Under the pieces are notes generated by a model that worked only from the letters and a program-made list of their open reading frames with translations, searched no databases and was not told where the DNA came from. The position numbers and the translations under genes are program-made. Below are positions 382 to 32,170 of a stretch of 35,907 bases of DNA, one piece after another. Position 1 is the stretch's first letter. Each line of letters begins with the position of its first letter. Source of the stretch: Candidatus Kerfeldbacteria bacterium RIFCSPHIGHO2_12_FULL_48_17 (GTDB taxonomy: Bacteria > Patescibacteriota > Patescibacteriia > HO2-48-17); assembly GCA_001818775.1 (NCBI GenBank), contig MHKD01000041.1:1-35907 (forward strand), read 5' to 3'.

Positions 382-2079
382 ATGCGCTGGGTTTTCCAAA
401 AACACATACCAAGCAACATTTTCCAAAATCTCACGAACATACCTGAAGTGGTCGCGCAGATTTTGTATAACCGCGGTATCAGCGGACAGAAAACCATGGA
501 AGAATTTCTCGAACCCGATTATGACGAGGGAATTCATGATCCGTTTTTGTTTCGCGACATGGAAAAAGCCGTGGCGCGCATACAAAAAGCCATTCGTGAT
601 AAAGAAAAAATCGTCGCTCATGGGGACTACGACGCTGATGGTGTCTGCGGCGCGGCCGTGCTCGTTGATGGACTGCGTCAACTCGGCGCGCAGGTCGAGG
701 CCTATCTGCCGCATCGCGAACGTGAAGGATATGGTGTGAACAAAGAAACCGTCAGACAGCTGGCCAAAAACGGCACCAACCTCATCATTACCGCCGACTG
801 CGGCATCAGCAACCAGCCGGAAATCGAACTGGCGCGCGAACTCGGTATGGATGTTATTGTCACCGATCATCACCATGAACCGCTGCAAATGCCCACCGCC
901 GCGTACGCCATCATCAATCCCAGTGTCTCCACCGAAACCTATCCTTTCCGCGGTCTGGCCGGCGTTGGCGTGGCCTTTAAGCTCATTTCAGCGCTCTATC
1001 AAAAAGACAACGGCAAAACCGTACCCAAAGGCGCCGAAAAATGGCTGCTGGATCTCGTTGCCATCAGTACCATCACCGACATGATGCCGCTGCTGGGAGA
1101 AAATCGTGTCCTGGTCAAATATGGCCTCATTGTCCTGCGCAAAACCCGCCGCTTTGGTCTGCATGCCCTGGCTCAGGCCGTCAACACCCCCATAGAAAAA
1201 TTTGACACCGACCATATCGGTTTTCGCATCGGTCCGCGTCTGAACGCCGCCGGTCGTTTGCAGCACGCTGATATCGCTTTTCAAGCCATGATCACCAAAA
1301 GCGCGGGAGAAGCGCAAAAGCTGGCGCAGCGTCTGGAGCAAATCAACAACGATCGCCGCCTCGTCACCGAACTCATTTCCACGGAAGTCGAGCAGCAGCT
1401 GGGCGAAGTCGCGCCAGAGCAAAAAGCATTATTTGCTTTTGGAAACAACTGGCCCATCGGCGTCGTCGGTTTGGTGGCGGGCAAAGTGGCGCAAAAATAC
1501 AACCGCCCGGTGTTTATTCTTGGTGAAGTTGACGGCAATATTGTCGCTTCGGGACGCAGCGTGCCCGAGCTCAACATCGTGGAAGTTTTGCAAGCCAGCG
1601 CCAAATATTACGCCAAATATGGCGGTCATGCCGCGGCCTGCGGTTTCACGCTCAAGTACAAGGAAGATTTCGACGAGTGGAAACAGTTTATGCATGATCT
1701 CATAAAGGAAAAACTTGACGGCGCGGATACCACGCAGATGCTGAAAGTCGAAAGCGAAATACGCCTGACGGACATCACCTGGGAGCTGTGGCAGTTTCTG
1801 GAAAAATTGGCGCCGTTCGGCCAGGCCCATCCCAAGCCGGTGTATGCCGCCAGGCAGGTAACGGTGCAGCAGGTAAAGGCGCTCGGTAAAACCGGAAAAC
1901 ATTTACGGTTAGTTGTGGAGCAGGGTGGCATGACAAAACAGTCGGTGGGTTTTGGATTCGGGGAATGGTCACAGAAGCTGAGCCCCGGTCAAAAAATAGA
2001 TATAGCCTTTACTGTCGATCTGAATGAATGGAACGGCCAGCGCGAGCTGCAACTCAAAATTCTTGATATACATGTATGA
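382..2079 (+). CDS. recJ: Single-stranded-DNA-specific exonuclease RecJ
   Basis: 565 aa; DHH-family motifs HGDYDADGVCGAAVL, ITADCGISN, VTDHHHEP and DHHA1-like GGHAAACGF. Confidence 0.95.
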   Translation: MRWVFQKHIPSNIFQNLTNIPEVVAQILYNRGISGQKTMEEFLEPDYDEGIHDPFLFRDMEKAVARIQKAIRDKEKIVAHGDYDADGVCGAAVLVDGLRQLGAQVEAYLPHREREGYGVNKETVRQLAKNGTNLIITADCGISNQPEIELARELGMDVIVTDHHHEPLQMPTAAYAIINPSVSTETYPFRGLAGVGVAFKLISALYQKDNGKTVPKGAEKWLLDLVAISTITDMMPLLGENRVLVKYGLIVLRKTRRFGLHALAQAVNTPIEKFDTDHIGFRIGPRLNAAGRLQHADIAFQAMITKSAGEAQKLAQRLEQINNDRRLVTELISTEVEQQLGEVAPEQKALFAFGNNWPIGVVGLVAGKVAQKYNRPVFILGEVDGNIVASGRSVPELNIVEVLQASAKYYAKYGGHAAACGFTLKYKEDFDEWKQFMHDLIKEKLDGADTTQMLKVESEIRLTDITWELWQFLEKLAPFGQAHPKPVYAARQVTVQQVKALGKTGKHLRLVVEQGGMTKQSVGFGFGEWSQKLSPGQKIDIAFTVDLNEWNGQRELQLKILDIHV

Positions 2080-2480
2080 CAAAAATAATTGCGTATACGG
2101 ACGGCGGAGCGCGTGGTAATCCCGGTCCCGCCGGGCTTGGTGTGGTATTATATAATGAGCAAGGGAAGATAGTCAGCCGGCATAAAGCTTTCCTGGGCGT
2201 GCAAACCAACAACCAGGCTGAATACAAGGCGGTGATTGTTGCCCTGACCGAAGCGCTGAATCATGGGGCCGATGAATTGGAATTGCGCGCCGACAGTAAA
2301 CTGATTATTGAGCAGCTCAAGGGAAATTACCGCGTCAAAGATAAAATTCTCGGTCAGTTATTCGTCAAGGTATGGAACCTGCGCCACCGATTCAAAAAAA
2401 TAATCCTTGTTCATGTGCCGCGCGCGCGAAACAAAGTCGCGGACGCCCTGGCGAATGAGGCGATGGATGAAGGCGTATGA
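2076..2480 (+). CDS. RNase HI-like protein (ribonuclease H / reverse-transcriptase-like)
   Basis: YTDGGARGNPGPAGLGVVLY, NNQAEYKAVIVAL, LRADSKLIIEQL, NKVADALAN; ATGA overlap with recJ. Confidence 0.92.
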   Translation: MTKIIAYTDGGARGNPGPAGLGVVLYNEQGKIVSRHKAFLGVQTNNQAEYKAVIVALTEALNHGADELELRADSKLIIEQLKGNYRVKDKILGQLFVKVWNLRHRFKKIILVHVPRARNKVADALANEAMDEGV

Positions 2481-2644
2481 TGGGTCTGTCGCCGAATACC
2501 ATTTCTGCTGCAATCATTGAATTTTGGCCAGAACCGCTTCAAAATTTTTCGGCTTATATTCCATATAAACCTCAAAATTTATTCAGCAATTCTGTCACAA
2601 AATTCCATAATTTCGTCACGAAAGCGTATTCGGCGACAGACCCA
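2481..2644. mobile_element. MITE-like palindromic element, copy A
   Basis: TIR TGGGTCTGTCGCCGAATAC / GTATTCGGCGACAGACCCA; 2 mismatches to copy B; flanked by TGA (2478-2480 and 2645-2647), or ATGA if the 4-bp reading is used. Confidence 0.88.
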
Positions 2645-3165
2645 TGAAACACATTTCTCTCAGGCAACTTAACGATTTTCGCCGGGCAGGTCTGCGGCCG
2701 CAGGTGGTTGGCTGCTTCGTAAAAGACCGGCAGGTATTATTTGTGTACGTAAAAAAACACAAACTGTGGCAACTGCCACAGGGTGGAGTGGAGAACAACG
2801 AAACACTGGAAGCGGCGCTCGAGCGGGAGATGACCGAAGAACTCGGTCCAAGTTTCATGAAGCATGCTGCAAAAAAACGTCACCCCATGGGCGAGGACGT
2901 TTTACAGTTTCCCAAGAAGGCCCACAATACCCGTGACCTCAGGACCGACAGCGGTAAATCCATCAAGATGCGCGGGAAAAAATATTTTTTCTTTGCCATA
3001 CCGGTCGGAAAGAAAACCCTCCGTCTGCGTGAAACGGAATTCAACGATTACAGGTGGCTGGGGTACATTGATGCCCTGAACCTCACCGATACGATTTACC
3101 AAAAGGAAAAACAGAAAAAAACGCAGGGAATACTGAAAAACCTGCGTCAGCACGGCTGGCTGTAG
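2644..3165 (+). CDS. Nudix hydrolase (RppH-like)
   Basis: Intact Nudix box GGVENNETLEAALEREMTEELG; WQLPQGGVE. Confidence 0.9.
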   Translation: MKHISLRQLNDFRRAGLRPQVVGCFVKDRQVLFVYVKKHKLWQLPQGGVENNETLEAALEREMTEELGPSFMKHAAKKRHPMGEDVLQFPKKAHNTRDLRTDSGKSIKMRGKKYFFFAIPVGKKTLRLRETEFNDYRWLGYIDALNLTDTIYQKEKQKKTQGILKNLRQHGWL

Positions 3166-3173
3166 CTCCAAAC

Positions 3174-3202
3174 TTGACATTTTTTGTCATTTTGAGTATA
3201 TT
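3174..3202 (+). promoter_or_regulatory. Sigma-70-type promoter of rnpB
   Basis: TTGACA (3174-3179), 17-bp spacer, TATATT (3197-3202), 8 nt before the rnpB 5' end. Confidence 0.8.
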
Positions 3203-3210
3203 TATTCTAC

Positions 3211-3637
3211 TTAAGCTGGGCCGGATGACCGCTGCCAAATGGGGTAAAACCCGTTGGGAGAGGAAAGTCCGAACACCTTGTTTAGGCCAGTCCTAGACAA
3301 AAATATGGGTGATGGATAACGTCCATCGCACGTCCAGCAATGGCCGTGTAGGGAAAGTGCCACAGAGACAATACTACCTGATCCCGCATGGGTTCAGCGA
3401 AAGGTGAAAAGTCTGCGGAAGTATACCTGTTCTCATTTTTGAGGGCTAACCCGCTACCGCAGAATTGCATACGGCAACGTATGTGAGTGGTAAACCCCAC
3501 CTGGTGCAAGAGCAAGAGAGAAGAGGCCTCACGGCCGATTCTCGGTAGCTCGCTCGACCTTCGTGGCAACGCGAAGGCTAGATAGATGGTCATCGCTACG
3601 CAAGTAGTACAGAATTCGGCTTACAAGCCCAGCTTAA
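3211..3637 (+). ncRNA. rnpB: RNase P RNA
   Basis: Closing helix TTAAGCTGGG/CCCAGCTTAA; GAGGAAAGTCCGAACACC, CACAGAGACAATAC, GATAGATGGTCATC and AGAATTCGGCTTAC match the conserved core of bacterial RNase P RNA. Confidence 0.93.
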
Positions 3638-3664
3638 GCCCTGGAGGGCAAACCCTCGGACTTA

Positions 3665-3828
3665 TGGGTCTGTCGCCGAATACCATTTCTGCTGCAATCA
3701 TTGAATTTTGGCCAGAACCGCTTCAAAATTTTTCGGCTTATATTCTATATAAACCTCAAAATTTATTCAGCAATTCTGTCACAAAATTCCATGATTTCGT
3801 CACGAAAGCGTATTCGGCGACAGACCCC
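3665..3828. mobile_element. MITE-like palindromic element, copy B
   Basis: Near-identical to copy A; flanked by TTA (3662-3664 and 3829-3831), or CTTA if the 4-bp reading is used. Confidence 0.88.
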
Positions 3829-3832
3829 TTAC

Positions 3833-5287
3833 ATGTTTGGTGCATTTATGAAAAAGTCAGAGCTCGCATTTAATTTTATTCGCGTACCGGTAGATTATGT
3901 CATGTTAGTCGCAGCAGGTTTGGCGGCTTATTTTTTACGTTTCAGCAATTTCATCACCGATCTGCGCAATGTCTCCTATGAAATTCCTTTTCATTCCTAT
4001 ATTTGGATTCTCCTCCTGACCGCCTTGGTCTGGATTATCATCTTCGCCGTTTCCGGGCTGTATACTTTCAAAGGCACGCGCGGTATCGTCGCACAGACCC
4101 GTTCCATTTTTCTCGCCTGTTCAACGGGTGTCTTGGTCGTCATTCTGGTGATATTCTTCCGGCGCGAACTTTTCTCTTCGCGTTTCATCATCATCATAGC
4201 TTGGGTCATCAGTATCGTATTTGTCACGGTCGGTCGCTATATCATACTCAAAATTCAGCGTTACTTTTTCCAAAAAGGCGTTGGCGCGCACCGCGTTGTC
4301 ATCATCGGAGCAACCCGTGCCGCGACCACCATCAGGAAAGAAATAGAGAAAAACGTCAGTCTCGGTTACCGGGTTGTCCATCACTTTACCACTGCCGATG
4401 AAGCGATGTTGGAGCAGATCAAAAAATTCCAAACCGAAAAAACCATTGATGAAATTTTTCAGACCGATCCGTCGCTGAATCAAAAATACGAAAATCAACT
4501 CCTCGATTTTTGCCAGGTGAAACATATCACCTACAAATACGTGCCGAACATTCACGAAACCCGGTCAATAAACGTCCAGATGGATTCGCTGGCCGGTGTT
4601 CCCATCCTTGAACTCATCGGCACACCCCTTGACGGTTGGGGCAGAATAGCCAAGCGCGCGCTTGATATCATCGGCGCGGGTCTGCTCATTATCCTGACCA
4701 GTCCACTCATGCTCCTGGCAACTGGCATGATCAGGAGGCAGGATAAGGGTCCGATTATATACCGCAATGGCCGCGTCGGTTATAAGGGGAAGGTATTCGA
4801 AGCGTATAAATTCCGTTCCTACAAGCCTGAGTTTTGCACGGATTGGCGCAAAGAAGTCGCAGGGCAGGAATCGGCGGCTGAGAAATTCGAAAAGGAACTC
4901 ATCACCAAGCAGAATGCGAAAGGCAATGGGCCCCTCTATAAAATCAAAGATGATCCACGGGTCACCAAAGCCGGGTATTTTTTGCGCCGTAGCAGCATAG
5001 ATGAACTTCCGCAATTTTTTAACGTACTCAGGGGCGAAATGAGTCTTGTCGGTCCGCGTCCTCACCAGCCCAAAGAAGTGGCGCAGTACAAAAATAACCA
5101 CATGAAACTCCTGTCCATAAAACCGGGTATAACGGGGTTGGCGCAAATTTCCGGCAGGTCGGATCTGGAATTCGGAGATGAGGCAAAACTCGACATTTAC
5201 TACATTGAAAACTGGTCACTCCTGTGGGACATTGTTATACTGTTAAAAACTCCATTTGCTCTCGTTAAAAAACGCAACACCTTATGA
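3833..5287 (+). CDS. Polyprenyl-phosphate hexose-1-phosphate transferase (bacterial sugar transferase family)
   Basis: [75 protein letters not shown]. The track start (3701, TTG) lies inside element B; ATG 3833 or 3848 is more likely. Confidence 0.92.
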
Positions 5288-6411
5288 AAATCGCCCTCGT
5301 TCACGATCATCTGGCGCAGGATGGTGGAGCTGAAAAAGTGCTCCACTCATTCCACAAAATATGGCCCAAAGCGCCCATATTCATTTTACTGTATGATAAG
5401 GATTCAGCGCCAAAATATATCCCCTTCGAAAACATACAGACCTCCTTTATTCAGAAACTGCCCGGCGGTATAAAAAATTACAAGTGGTATTTACCGTTCA
5501 TGCCAACGGCCATAGAAAAATTTGATCTCATGGCATTTGATGTCGTACTTTCCAGCAGCTCAGCGCTGGCCAAGGGCGTGATAACAGCGCCGCACTCGCT
5601 CCACATCAGCTACACGCACACCCCAACACGCTACCTCTGGAGCGATACGCACAAATATATCGAAGAGCTGCCGTACCGCCGCATTATGAAAAAAATCATT
5701 CCGTTTTGCCTGACGTACCTGCGCATGTGGGACAGAATGGCCGCCGATCGGGTTGACCATTTTATCGCCAACTCAGGCATTGTCAAACAGCGCATAAGAA
5801 AGTATTATAAACACGAGAGCGACGTTATTTTTCCGCCGGTTGATACCACCAAATTTACGCCGGCTGCCAACCCAACCCGTGACTATTTCCTCGTTGGCGG
5901 GCGACTGGTTCCCTACAAGCGCTTCGACATCGCCATTCAGGCATTCAACCGACTCAAAATACCGCTCAAAGTTTTTGGCGCGGGTCCGGATATGGCCAGA
6001 CTCAAAAGCATGGCCGGAAAAAACATCACCTTTGTGGGGCGCGTATCCGGTGAAGAACTGGCCACATTATATCAAGATGCCAAAGCCCTGATTTTTCCGC
6101 AGGTGGAGGATTTCGGCATCGTACCTCTGGAAGCCATGGCCGCAGGGACTCCGGTGATAGCATACAAAGCCGGCGGCGCTTTGGAAACCGTTGTTGCCGG
6201 AAAGACGGGTATATTTTTCGAAGAGCAGGGTTGGGGGGATCTTTCCAAGGCGGTTGTGCAGTTCAAATCAACACAATTCGACGCAAAAACGATCCGCGCG
6301 CACGCTGAAAAATTCAGCACAGAAATATTTGAAAAGAATATCAAAGAATACGTGGAAGGCAAGTGGAAGCAACATAAGAGCCTGTTCAATATCTCTCTGA
6401 ATAATAATTAA
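5284..6411 (+). CDS. Glycosyltransferase family 4
   Basis: [76 protein letters not shown] overlap with the upstream gene. Confidence 0.92.
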   Translation: MKIALVHDHLAQDGGAEKVLHSFHKIWPKAPIFILLYDKDSAPKYIPFENIQTSFIQKLPGGIKNYKWYLPFMPTAIEKFDLMAFDVVLSSSSALAKGVITAPHSLHISYTHTPTRYLWSDTHKYIEELPYRRIMKKIIPFCLTYLRMWDRMAADRVDHFIANSGIVKQRIRKYYKHESDVIFPPVDTTKFTPAANPTRDYFLVGGRLVPYKRFDIAIQAFNRLKIPLKVFGAGPDMARLKSMAGKNITFVGRVSGEELATLYQDAKALIFPQVEDFGIVPLEAMAAGTPVIAYKAGGALETVVAGKTGIFFEEQGWGDLSKAVVQFKSTQFDAKTIRAHAEKFSTEIFEKNIKEYVEGKWKQHKSLFNISLNNN

Positions 6412-19057: not shown

Positions 19058-19168
19058 ATGAGCAAACAAAAAAGAGTCGACGAAGCTGACAAACTTTTAC
19101 AGGAACTCAAAAAAGTGGAAGCTGAGGCAGATAGTCTGATAGAGCAACAGGAAAAGGGGAGAGAGTAG
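19058..19168 (+). CDS. Putative 36-aa small protein MSKQKRVDEADKLLQELKKVEAEADSLIEQQEKGRE
   Basis: Open frame between a promoter/leader and an intrinsic terminator; charged helical composition. Confidence 0.45.
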   Translation: MSKQKRVDEADKLLQELKKVEAEADSLIEQQEKGRE

Positions 19169-19325
19169 AGCTCATCTCAAAAATAATCTTTTACTGCAAT
19201 TTCAGATTTTCAGCTGCAAAATATTCAGATTTCGTCAGTATAGTAGTCACTATTCCTCCTCAATCTTCATATTTTTCGCTCGAAAATCTGAAATTTCGTC
19301 ACAAAGCTATTTTTGAGATGAGCTC
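19168..19325. mobile_element. MITE-like palindromic element E1
   Basis: TIR GAGCTCATCTCAAAAATA / TATTTTTGAGATGAGCTC; TA at both ends; inner stem AATTTCAGATTTT/AAAATCTGAAATT; shares the core ATTCAGATTTCGTCAGTATAGTAGTCACTATTCCTCCTCAATCTTCAT. Confidence 0.85.
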
Positions 19326-19339
19326 TAACAAAATGATCA

Positions 19340-24307: not shown

Positions 24308-24313
24308 ATGTTA

Positions 24314-24470
24314 GAACCCATCTCAAAAATAATATTTTACTGCAATTTCAGATTTTTGTCTGCAAAACATTCAGATTTCGTCGGCATAGTTGTACTATTC
24401 CTCCTCAATCTTCATGTTTTTCGTCAAAAAATCTGAAATTTCGTCACAAATCTATTTTTGAGATGGGTTC
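24314..24470. mobile_element. MITE-like palindromic element E2
   Basis: TIR GAACCCATCTCAAAAATA / TATTTTTGAGATGGGTTC, TA at both ends; diverged copy of E1. Confidence 0.85.
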
Positions 24471-24536
24471 TACACAGTTTGCGGTGGCAGGCGTAAAGTG
24501 GTAGAGTAATCAGCATATTTCTGTGGAGCTATCTCA

Positions 24537-24696
24537 GTAACTGTCTCATATCTCCGTATTCTGCTGCAAAATTGAAATTTCGGCTGCAAAAAATTCAGAT
24601 TTCGTCAGCATAGTAGTCACTATTCCTCCTCAATCTTCATTTTTTTCGCTCGAAATTTCAATTTTTCGCTACGAAAGAGAGATATTAGACAGTTAC
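24537..24696. mobile_element. MITE-like palindromic element E3
   Basis: TIR GTAACTGTCtcATATCTC / GAGATATTAGACAGTTAC; TCA at 24534-24536 and 24697-24699; inner stem AATTGAAATTTCG/CGAAATTTCAATT. Confidence 0.88.
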
Positions 24697-24719
24697 TCAA
24701 ATTAAGCACAAAGCGCCGT

Positions 24720-27521
24720 ATGTCCATACTCAAAAAAATATTCGGGGATCCCAGTGTGAAAGCAGTGAAGGAATTCAGTAAAAAGATTGCCAAAATCAAT
24801 GAGCTCGAACCAGCGGTGGCCGGGCTCGGAGATGAGCAGCTCAAGGGTAAAACCCAGGCATTTCGCGAGAGATTAAAGAAGGGCGAGAAACTAGATGATA
24901 TGCTCTTTGAGGCTTTTGCCGTCGTCCGCGAAGCAGCCAAGCGCAGTCTGGGCCAAAGGCACTACGATGTTCAGCTCATAGCCGGACTGGCTTTGCATGA
25001 CAGAAACATTGCTGAAATGAAAACAGGCGAAGGCAAAACGCTGGCGGCAACACTCACGTTGTACGCAAATGCGCTGGAAGGAAAGGGTACGCATTTGGTA
25101 ACGGTAAATGATTACCTAGCCAGACGCGACGCTGATTGGATGGGGCGTATTTTTCATGCGCTTGGGTTGTCAGTGGGCTGTTTACAAAATCAGGGCATAT
25201 CCTACATTTTTGATCCTGAAGCGCGCGTCAAGGAAGAAAAAGACCGGGAAGAAAATACCGAAGACAGGACAGAAGAAATCGCACAGCTTTCTTTTAAGGT
25301 GGATATGGAAAATCTGCGCGCCGTATCGCGCCGTGAAGCCTACGCCGCTGATATTACCTACGGAACCAACAACGAATTCGGCTTTGATTATCTGCGTGAT
25401 AATATGGTGCAAAACCTGGCGGACAAAGTCCAGCGGGGTTTGCATTTTGCCATCATTGATGAAGTTGACAGTATCCTCATTGATGAAGCCAGGACGCCGC
25501 TTATCATTTCCGCGCCGGCCGAGAAAGCGACCGACAAATACTATGAATTTGCGAAAATGGTCAACACGCTCGATGTTGATAAGCACTACAATGTGGATGA
25601 GAAAATGAATTCCGTGGCTCTGACCCAGGAAGGCATTGATGCCGTGGAAAAGGCGCTGGGCCAAAAAGATCTCTATCAGGAGGGTGGTATTGAAGAAATT
25701 CATCATATAGAACAGGCCCTCAAAGCCAAGGCGTTGTTCCGGCTTGATAAGGAATACGTCATCAAAGACGGCGAAATCGTCATCGTTGACGAATTCACCG
25801 GTCGGCTGATGTTTGGTCGCAGATTTTCCGAAGGGCTGCACCAGGCGATAGAAGCGAAAGAAGGGGTGGAAATTAAACAGGAATCTCTGACGCTCGCCAC
25901 CATCACGTTGCAAAATCTGTTCCGCATGTATGAAAAAATCGGGGGCATGACGGGTACGGCGGAAACAGAAGCCGAAGAGTTCGGAAAAATTTACGGGCTC
26001 GACGTGGTGGTTATACCAACGCACCGGCAGATTGCGCGGCAGGACCACAACGATAAAATTTACAAAACAGAACTCGGTAAACTCAAAGCCGTGGTGCAGG
26101 AAATAAAACGTAAGCACGAAGCGGGTCAACCGGTGTTGGTCGGCACCATTTCCATCGAGAAAAATGAAATACTGGGAGCGCTCCTGCAAAGGGAGGGTAT
26201 AGTGCACGAACTCTTAAACGCCAAAAACCATGAGCGCGAAGGTCAGATTATCGCCCAAGCCGGACGGCCGGGCGCCGTCACCGTGGCTACCAATATGGCC
26301 GGGAGAGGTGTTGATATCGTGCTCGGTGGCAACCCACCCACGAAAGAAGATGCCGATAAGGTCAAAGCAGCCGGCGGACTCATGGTGATTGGCACGGAGC
26401 GCCACGAATCACGGCGCATTGACAATCAGCTGCGCGGTCGTTCAGGTCGCCAGGGGGATAAAGGGCTGTCACAATTTTTCGTCTCGCTTCAGGATGATCT
26501 GATGCGCATTTTTGCATCCGAAAAAATTTCCGGTCTTATGAACAGACTTGGTTTGCCCGAGGATATGCCGATTGAGAACAAACTTATTTCCCGCTCTATT
26601 GAGTCAGCGCAGAAAAAAGTGGAAGGAAGAAATTTCGATATCAGAAAACACCTCGTTGAGTATGACGATGTAATGAATAAACATCGTGAAGTCATCTATA
26701 AAAAACGGAATGACGTGTTGGAGGCTTTCAAAACCGAACCAAAAAAGCTCAAGGAGAAGATTATGGAGATGATGAGCTTGGAGATTGAACATGTGGTGGC
26801 CTTCCATACCGCCATTGAGGACAAGAAAAAAGACTGGAATGTGAAAGAGATCATCGAAACGATGGTAACCATATTTCCCATGTCAGAGGAAGAGCGGAAA
26901 AATATACTGAACAAAAATATTGAACAGCCTCAAGACGTCAATAAGGCCGTTGAACACAGAACTGAGCTTATAAAAGAACTTATCGCCGCGGCTGAAAAAA
27001 GATACGAAGAATTCACAGGAACATTTCCCGATGAAGATACCCTGCGCCGCGTGGAAAAAGATATCCAGTTGCGGGCCATTGATTCGCTCTGGGTTGAGCA
27101 TTTGGATCAGATGACCAGGCTCCGCGAGGGGATTGGACTGCGCGGCTATGGCCAAAAAGATCCGTTGGTCGAATACAAGCGTGAAGCATTTTCACTTTTT
27201 ACTGAGCTCATCAATCAGATACAGCGCCGGGTGGTATATGCATTCTTTAAAATACGGATCAAAGAGCCAAGCAGGGCAGCCAATATCATGAATCAACCGC
27301 GGATCCGTCTCCAGGGAGCCGCAAAGGAGATGAGCAGGGGTGCAGGACAATTTTCCGATACAAAAAATGGCGGAAAAAACGGCGTAGGCGTAGGCGTAAA
27401 ACAAGCGACAACACCAGCCGTAAGCGAAAAATTAAAAACACCGGAAGGAAAGAAGGTCGGCCGCAATGATCCCTGTCCATGCGGGTCGGGAAAAAAGTAC
27501 AAGCGCTGCCACGGAAAGTAA
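24720..27521 (+). CDS. secA: Protein translocase subunit SecA
   Basis: RHYDVQLIAGLALHDRNIAEMKTGEGKTLAATL; FAIIDEVDSILIDEARTPLIIS; TVATNMAGRGVDIVLGG; C-terminal SEC-C motif CPCGSGKKYKRCHGK. Confidence 0.98.
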   Translation: MSILKKIFGDPSVKAVKEFSKKIAKINELEPAVAGLGDEQLKGKTQAFRERLKKGEKLDDMLFEAFAVVREAAKRSLGQRHYDVQLIAGLALHDRNIAEMKTGEGKTLAATLTLYANALEGKGTHLVTVNDYLARRDADWMGRIFHALGLSVGCLQNQGISYIFDPEARVKEEKDREENTEDRTEEIAQLSFKVDMENLRAVSRREAYAADITYGTNNEFGFDYLRDNMVQNLADKVQRGLHFAIIDEVDSILIDEARTPLIISAPAEKATDKYYEFAKMVNTLDVDKHYNVDEKMNSVALTQEGIDAVEKALGQKDLYQEGGIEEIHHIEQALKAKALFRLDKEYVIKDGEIVIVDEFTGRLMFGRRFSEGLHQAIEAKEGVEIKQESLTLATITLQNLFRMYEKIGGMTGTAETEAEEFGKIYGLDVVVIPTHRQIARQDHNDKIYKTELGKLKAVVQEIKRKHEAGQPVLVGTISIEKNEILGALLQREGIVHELLNAKNHEREGQIIAQAGRPGAVTVATNMAGRGVDIVLGGNPPTKEDADKVKAAGGLMVIGTERHESRRIDNQLRGRSGRQGDKGLSQFFVSLQDDLMRIFASEKISGLMNRLGLPEDMPIENKLISRSIESAQKKVEGRNFDIRKHLVEYDDVMNKHREVIYKKRNDVLEAFKTEPKKLKEKIMEMMSLEIEHVVAFHTAIEDKKKDWNVKEIIETMVTIFPMSEEERKNILNKNIEQPQDVNKAVEHRTELIKELIAAAEKRYEEFTGTFPDEDTLRRVEKDIQLRAIDSLWVEHLDQMTRLREGIGLRGYGQKDPLVEYKREAFSLFTELINQIQRRVVYAFFKIRIKEPSRAANIMNQPRIRLQGAAKEMSRGAGQFSDTKNGGKNGVGVGVKQATTPAVSEKLKTPEGKKVGRNDPCPCGSGKKYKRCHGK

Positions 27522-31250: not shown

Positions 31251-32144
31251 ATGTATAATATACTGCGTTTCGAAAAGTTACTCATCGGTATTTCCATCGG
31301 CCTGGCGGTGTTGAGCGCTGTTTCTTTGGCTGTATGGGGGCTGAAGCTGGGCATAGATTTCACCGGCGGCACACAAATGCGTGTGAGTTTTTCGGAACAG
31401 AGGCCCGAAATCGAAAGCGTGAAAAGCAGTTTACAAACGCTCGAACTCGGCGACGTCAGCGTGCAGCCGACAGAAGAAAAGGAATACATACTCAAACTCA
31501 AACCCATTGATAACGACACCCGGCAAAAGGTTCTTGAAAACCTGAACACTGCGTTTCCCGGCACGCAGGAAACGAGCTTTGAGTCCATCGGGCCGAGCGT
31601 GGGCGCGGAGCTGAAAAGCAAAGCGATAAAGGCCATCATCATCGTGTTGGTCGCCATTGTTCTCTTTATTACCTGGGCGTTTCGGAAAACTTCCAAAGGG
31701 CCTGTGCCTTCCTGGGTATATGGCATGGCGGCTATTATCGCCCTGGCGCATGATATATTTATAACCACCGGTATTTTCAGCTTCCTTACGTGGTGGAAGG
31801 GGATAGAGGTTGACAGTCTCTTTATAACGGCATTACTCACCATTCTCGGTTTTTCGGTGCACGATACCATTGTGGTATTTGATCGCATTCGTGAACACCT
31901 GAAAACGTCGAGTAGCAGCTTCCGTGAAATCATCAACGAAAGTATCAACAGTACCATGATGCGGTCACTGAACACTTCTCTTGCCACCCTTCTGGTTTTA
32001 TTGGCGCTGTTTATTTTTGGCGGTGCCTCCATTCAGTATTTCGTGCTGACCCTCATTATCGGCATCATTCTGGGAACCTATTCTTCCATTTTCATTGCCA
32101 GCCCACTGCTGCTGGTGTTCCAGAAATTCCTGAAGCGGTCTTAG
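31251..32144 (+). CDS. secF: Protein translocase subunit SecF
   Basis: GLKLGIDFTGGTQMRVSF; GFSVHDTIVVFDRIREHL; NESINSTMMRSLNTSLATLLVLLALFIFGG. Confidence 0.95.
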   Translation: MYNILRFEKLLIGISIGLAVLSAVSLAVWGLKLGIDFTGGTQMRVSFSEQRPEIESVKSSLQTLELGDVSVQPTEEKEYILKLKPIDNDTRQKVLENLNTAFPGTQETSFESIGPSVGAELKSKAIKAIIIVLVAIVLFITWAFRKTSKGPVPSWVYGMAAIIALAHDIFITTGIFSFLTWWKGIEVDSLFITALLTILGFSVHDTIVVFDRIREHLKTSSSSFREIINESINSTMMRSLNTSLATLLVLLALFIFGGASIQYFVLTLIIGIILGTYSSIFIASPLLLVFQKFLKRS

Positions 32145-32170
32145 TAACTGTCTCATAGCTTCGTAGCCTG
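32144..32170. repeat. Remnant of an E3/E4-type element
   Basis: TTA|GTAACTGTCTCATAGCTTCGTAGCCTGC matches the E3 left end GTAACTGTCTCATATCTCCGTATTCTGC at the secF stop; the rest is lost. Confidence 0.6.

Follow-up and report, generated by a model that had tools for sequence, protein, structure and literature searches.

Within the window (the whole stretch of DNA analysed, 35,907 nucleotides, which is contig C41 in the genome of Candidatus Kerfeldbacteria bacterium RIFCSPHIGHO2_12_FULL_48_17, 1.22 Mb in size and 91% complete), we examined two short repeats, A and B. The neighbours of A are an RNase H-like gene and a Nudix gene, and those of B are rnpB and a sugar-transferase gene (table 1). As originally predicted from the sequence, they are near-identical copies arranged as direct repeats around the Nudix gene and rnpB, with only two internal differences, at element positions 81 (C/T) and 129 (A/G). 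The predicted terminal inverted repeat (TIR) shared by the copies also stands, yet each copy measures 162 bp rather than 164 bp, and the T placed at the head of the TIR is target-site DNA, as shown by the different bases that other copies carry at this place. The TIR proper is 18 bp long, perfect, and reads GGGTCTGTCGCCGAATAC at both ends. Conserved protein-coding capacity is absent, the frames running through B being chance extensions. The site of A is an ATGA stop/start overlap of two genes, and both codons are intact thanks to the target duplication. As for the neighbourhood, the Nudix gene (2644-3165) is not adjacent to rnpB in the relatives examined, where RNase H is often the upstream neighbour; here it stands between the RNase H-like gene and rnpB, apparently as an insertion specific to this lineage.

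Table 1. Coordinates of the repeats, their parts, and neighbouring genes in the window.
Feature	Position	Strand	Score or basis
RNase H-like gene (PF13456), upstream of A	2076..2480	+	
A left target duplication ATGAT, 4/5 match; holds stop codon of RNase H-like gene	2477..2481	.	
Element A, imperfect hairpin, MITE-like	2482..2643	+	covariance model 173 bits; fold z -10.35
A left TIR GGGTCTGTCGCCGAATAC	2482..2499	+	
A right TIR	2626..2643	-	
A right target duplication ATGAA; holds Nudix start codon	2644..2648	.	
Nudix gene (PF00293), directly 3' of A	2644..3165	+	
rnpB, RNase P RNA class A; 3' end 26 bp before start of B	3213..3639	+	
B left target duplication CTTAT, 4/5 match	3661..3665	.	
Element B, 162-bp imperfect hairpin, 2 differences vs A	3666..3827	+	covariance model 172 bits
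B left TIR	3666..3683	+	
B right TIR	3810..3827	-	
B right target duplication CTTAC	3828..3832	.	
E1, same superfamily, different TIR	19166..19327	+	covariance model 125 bits; core alignment
E2, same superfamily	24312..24472	+	covariance model 117 bits
E3, same superfamily; TIR as in G001 IS5-superfamily insertion sequence; 3-bp duplication TCA	24536..24697	+	
E4, same superfamily; TIR as in G001 IS5-superfamily insertion sequence; 3-bp duplication TAA	29155..29316	-	

The proposal that A and B belong to a recently moved subfamily was borne out by copy number, short target duplications, and empty orthologous sites for B. The host genome holds 11 full copies, 98-99% identical, besides fragments; copies are 86-92% identical in G001, the only other genome of the same family, and 79-82% in G037 and G056, from the same class, with a full-length size class of 159-163 bp across genomes. 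A scan of named genomes with the TIR returned at least 112 loci and, among the matches listed, nearly all are from Patescibacteria (Magasanikbacteria, Kerfeldbacteria, Azambacteria, Falkowbacteria, and two marine MAGs). TIR ends with at most two mismatches number 231 in G095, 201 in G101, 102 in G100, 62 in G001, and 27 in the host genome; the reversed control pattern gave zero matches. TIR matches outside Patescibacteria (seven examined) and one on a viral contig are without a partner end and were discarded as chance, and no copy of the element was found in the phages and plasmids searched. The flanks carry A+T-rich 5-bp duplications, exact at 5/5 positions in 39 of the 66 distinct copies of the 162-bp class; 30/49 exact duplications were observed versus 0.92 expected when flanks were re-paired among copies. 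Nine of the 11 single mismatches fall at an outer position, so that some duplications are probably 4 bp long. The duplicated sequence varies freely among copies, with no fixed TTTAT target motif, and insertions are mostly intergenic as judged by crude gene calls. The order rnpB then sugar transferase is ancestral across the class, and in 17 relatives B is absent from the gap, which spans 11-110 bp there versus 208 bp here. B is therefore not fixed in position, and its absence from this conserved gap indicates that A and B inserted separately and recently.

The original prediction also assigned A and B to the superfamily of four further repeats in the window, E1-E4, on the basis of shared subterminal boxes. 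Aligned without its TIRs, the core of A scores z = 5.5 against the E1 core with dinucleotide shuffles and 5.9 with palindrome-preserving shuffles, and 6.7 and 6.8, respectively, against the E3 core; both alignments exceed all 2000 shuffles of either kind, placing the box similarity above chance. When A-type, E-type, and other copies were combined into a covariance model, A and B reached 172-173 bits and E1-E4 117-134 bits, with nothing else in the window below E = 0.2. Given that A and E are inside the model, its scores are partly a matter of construction, and the shuffle-tested core alignment is the independent test. The similarity persists when more copies are aligned, and membership of one superfamily holds in both core alignments and covariance model; the kinship of A and B with the E elements is confirmed. 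The boxes are indeed shared, but the likeness extends beyond them to the hairpin as a whole, over about 160 bp; nor is the TIR "entirely different," as A and E3/E4 both have CTGTC at a nearly equal distance from the end. Across the class, the model found full-length matches, of about 160 bp, in 71/381 genomes. The TIR types seen on the same core are GGG[T/A]CTGTCGCCGAAT, AGACCTGTTGCGTAAT, GAGCCTGTCTAATAAG, and the E3/E4 type, AGTAACTGTCTAA. The window also has, at 32143-32155, a lone E3-type end (AGTAACTGTCTCA) with no partner end nearby, missed by the hairpin model.

Some of these ends match those of insertion sequences. The E3/E4 TIR is identical over 13 nt to that of an IS5-superfamily insertion sequence (DDE_Tnp_1/DDE_Tnp_1_2) at locus L249 of G001, whose TIR AGTAACTGTCTAAATTC begins with the same 13 bases as E4, and both have TNA duplications (TTA for the L249 element, written from GTAAC; TCA for E3; TAA for E4). 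Another TIR carried by this core, of the AGACC type (AGACCTGTTGCGTAATAA), corresponds to that of a second IS5-type insertion sequence, of the DDE_Tnp_4 kind (L285; TIR AGACCTGTTGCGTATTAA, a type found on several hairpin relatives; duplication ATT). The likeness to these Patescibacteria elements ends after the TIR, only the terminal 13-18 bp being in common and not the interior, so simple deletion within these elements would not yield the hairpins. For the A-type TIR, no autonomous element was found, including in the complete genome of a sister family member. The long TIR pairs examined for an internal gene (L092, L094, L108, L141, L143, L160, L165, and L177) enclose housekeeping or unrelated frames only; no transposase could be recognised at the lone ends of the host genome on C19, C18, C44, C43, C15, and C11 (frames around C43, C19, C18, and C44 read by eye), and, among the ends inspected at 29 more DDE_Tnp_1 loci from the class, none has GGGTCTGTCGCC. 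A Tn3 transposase (the TIME reading) was rejected, PF01526 being detected in 0/10 carriers while the positive control worked. Y1_Tnp genes are present in 6/12 carriers, the host genome included, and absent from G001, G095, and G100; the TIR is near none of the Y1 loci found. The CTGT motif in common and the example of their kin suggest that A and B may be moved by an IS5-like transposase. Other lone ends lie in the window at 6378-6395 and 26914-26931 (GAGCCTGTTCAATATCTC and a diverged version of it); they are similar to the ends of an IS5-type insertion sequence at L297 (TIR GAGCCCGTTCAATATCTC). At locus L063 (G000:C43), two frames, 1-1201 and 4049-5296, have in common the beginning of an ATPase-like protein (FLNHRQEVGDRRMLYISLDEVVNVLGSSLKDVL), the second being fused to another, phosphotransferase-like sequence, by duplication or recombination.

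The feature that unites these copies is their fold. The whole element forms one imperfect hairpin (fold energy z = -10.35), and among 23 diverged copies double (compensatory) changes occur in 28/56 pairs, amounting to 130 double-changed cells; shuffling gives 33.5 +- 5.2, and sliding the partners no more than 32. The least sequence-conserved stem (columns 34-39/125-130; 0.50) retains its pairing, and the internal-loop columns are conserved at 0.85, above this covarying stem. In addition, T.C and C.T mismatches at 59/104, 60/103, and 69/93 are retained in 22-23 of the 23 copies; we read this as selection for the fold with specific mismatches. A pattern search for a strict TC-helix-TC motif had no success, because loop sizes differ. 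In the complete genome G033, a copy (L272 1501-1661; G033:C10:392472-392632) lies inside the only rnpB detected, in its 3' part, between the P2 3' strand and the conserved ACAGAAUUCGGCUUA, the 3' block ACAGAATTCGGCTTA following the element; this insert is without a clear duplication and thus may be old. In the marine MAG G095 and its relatives, palindromes of 37, 44, 51, and 75 bp have the same TIR, also with duplications. The 37-bp class consists of two 18-bp TIRs and one base (e.g. L102 3079-3115 and L129 4331-4367), with exact 5-bp duplications in 16/33 versus 0.62 expected. These short palindromes look like tip deletions of the 161-bp hairpin.

Overall, we consider it very probable that A and B are recent, independent insertions of a non-autonomous element mobilised in trans, with an old, fold-selected hairpin interior and with ends that diverged or were exchanged. 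Such an element would be protein-free, bounded by 18-bp TIRs, with all 162 bp folding back as one imperfect hairpin. A DDE-type transposase, presumably supplied by an IS5-superfamily element, would act in trans, cutting the target with a 4-5-bp stagger and inserting preferentially into A+T-rich DNA; A would have entered the ATGA stop/start overlap with both codons preserved by the duplication. The interior would represent one old hairpin lineage common to the E elements and many other Patescibacteria, its fold and a few conserved mismatches maintained by selection, whereas the ends, diverged or exchanged, would be recognised by different transposases, several of the IS5 superfamily. The conserved folded shape with differing ends suggests, in fact, one hairpin lineage moved by different transposases. 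Our best guess is that the fold is retained by making insertions tolerable, by aiding transposition, possibly at the DNA level, or by both, two roles indistinguishable here. Several points count against this explanation: the searches found no autonomous element with the A-type TIR, the 5-bp duplication of A-type copies is unlike the 3-bp TNA of the IS5-type elements found, palindrome correction could in principle produce covariation too, and the own duplications of A and B match at only 4/5 positions. A bolder reading, which we hold only tentatively, treats the hairpin core of about 125 bp as a mobile lineage in its own right: a structured nucleic-acid satellite under selection for its fold, which repeatedly gained ends from different transposons, is mobilised by several transposases, and has its folded strand (DNA or RNA) participate in the spread.

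Other accounts of the fold and its mobility have to be weighed against the trans-mobilised hairpin. Long palindromes undergo template-switch correction, an established process that can in principle also yield covariation during replication, and the tip-deleted 75-, 44-, and 37-bp forms show that hairpin-dependent deletion happens. That the complementarity of the arms derives solely from such repair of quasi-palindromes, the fold being unselected, is nevertheless quite improbable: correction should erase mismatches, yet those listed above persist in nearly all diverged copies, and the internal loops are more conserved than the covarying stem. Palindromes of the REPIN/RAYT type, mobilised as single-stranded hairpins by a Y1 tyrosine transposase, would account for hairpins as such, for the existence of 37-bp palindromes of TIRs alone, and for Y1_Tnp in half of the carriers, including the host. 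However, G001 lacks the gene, as do the richest carriers, G095 and G100, no Y1 locus has the TIR nearby, and staggered 5-bp duplications are not expected from Y1/HUH family transposition, so we regard this origin as very improbable. A single composite element, with A and B as its ends and the Nudix gene and rnpB as its cargo, is still harder to credit. Their direct-repeat arrangement around both genes and the separation of the Nudix gene from rnpB in relatives would fit, but the outer flanks (ATGAT and CTTAC) differ, the rnpB-sugar transferase order is ancestral, and each copy has its own short duplication, which argues for independent insertions. That the hairpin is a structured RNA serving the host as a terminator, RNase III site, or mRNA stability element, spread by transposition and with its fold selected by the host, is somewhat more plausible but unlikely. 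The strong covariation, the conserved internal loops, and the position of B 26 bp past rnpB speak for it, as does the fact that known bacterial MITEs affect mRNAs (PMC2229807). On the other hand, sites are not conserved between genera, there is no Rfam family match, and orientation relative to flanking genes shows no preference (12 tandem copies along the gene direction versus 21 opposite, by crude gene calls), which argues against a strand-specific RNA role, although either strand of a near-palindrome folds into a similar hairpin.

Like MITEs, A and B are short, have no conserved coding capacity, and show TIRs, a target-site duplication, and many near-identical copies; a TIR common to an autonomous transposon, another mark of MITEs, was seen for E3/E4 and the AGACC type, and no partner was found for the A/B TIR. 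E3/E4 match the IS5 superfamily in both TIR and duplication size, whereas A and B share only CTGT and GC of the TIR motif and have 5-bp instead of 3-bp duplications; A+T-rich 5-bp duplications, as in A/B-type copies, resemble those of Tn3. The bcr1/group A repeats of the Bacillus cereus group are likewise MITE-like in structure and function, without their own transposase, and often in transcripts (PMC3446304); they resemble A and B in their similar size and intergenic position. By description rather than sequence comparison, they differ in phylum and in a fixed TTTAT motif to which B. cereus repeat mobility is tied (PMC6542083), A and B having a variable 5-bp duplication and an 18-bp TIR. Rickettsia palindromic elements, hairpins of 105-146 bp, also occur inside RNA genes, including RNase P (M1) RNA (PMC2229807), as does the G033 copy here, which suggests that a compact hairpin may be tolerated inside a folded RNA. 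They are known for inserting in frame into protein genes and show no clear target duplication (PMC2229807), unlike A/B-type copies, which have clear duplications and are mostly intergenic. Correia/NEMIS, ERIC, RUP, and YPAL are bacterial non-autonomous hairpins of 100-200 bp with TIRs and target duplications, many per genome; Correia, ERIC, and RUP have TA termini, and YPAL is without terminal repeats (PMC2229807). None of these is described there as one hairpin core across several TIR systems. We thus regard A and B as a variant of the bacterial MITE/palindromic element, with a conserved hairpin core that bears several kinds of transposase-specific ends.

The literature searched holds no account of such elements in Patescibacteria, where short mobile repeats are hardly described. 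As far as tested, the class-wide family, the conserved mismatched hairpin, and the placement of one core on several TIR systems are new. Patescibacteria genomes are reduced, and this hairpin family is present in close to a fifth of the sampled genomes of one class. Our findings make two questions testable: why long hairpins are so frequent among the non-autonomous elements of bacteria, and whether the interiors of such elements follow a course of evolution separate from that of the mobilising transposases.
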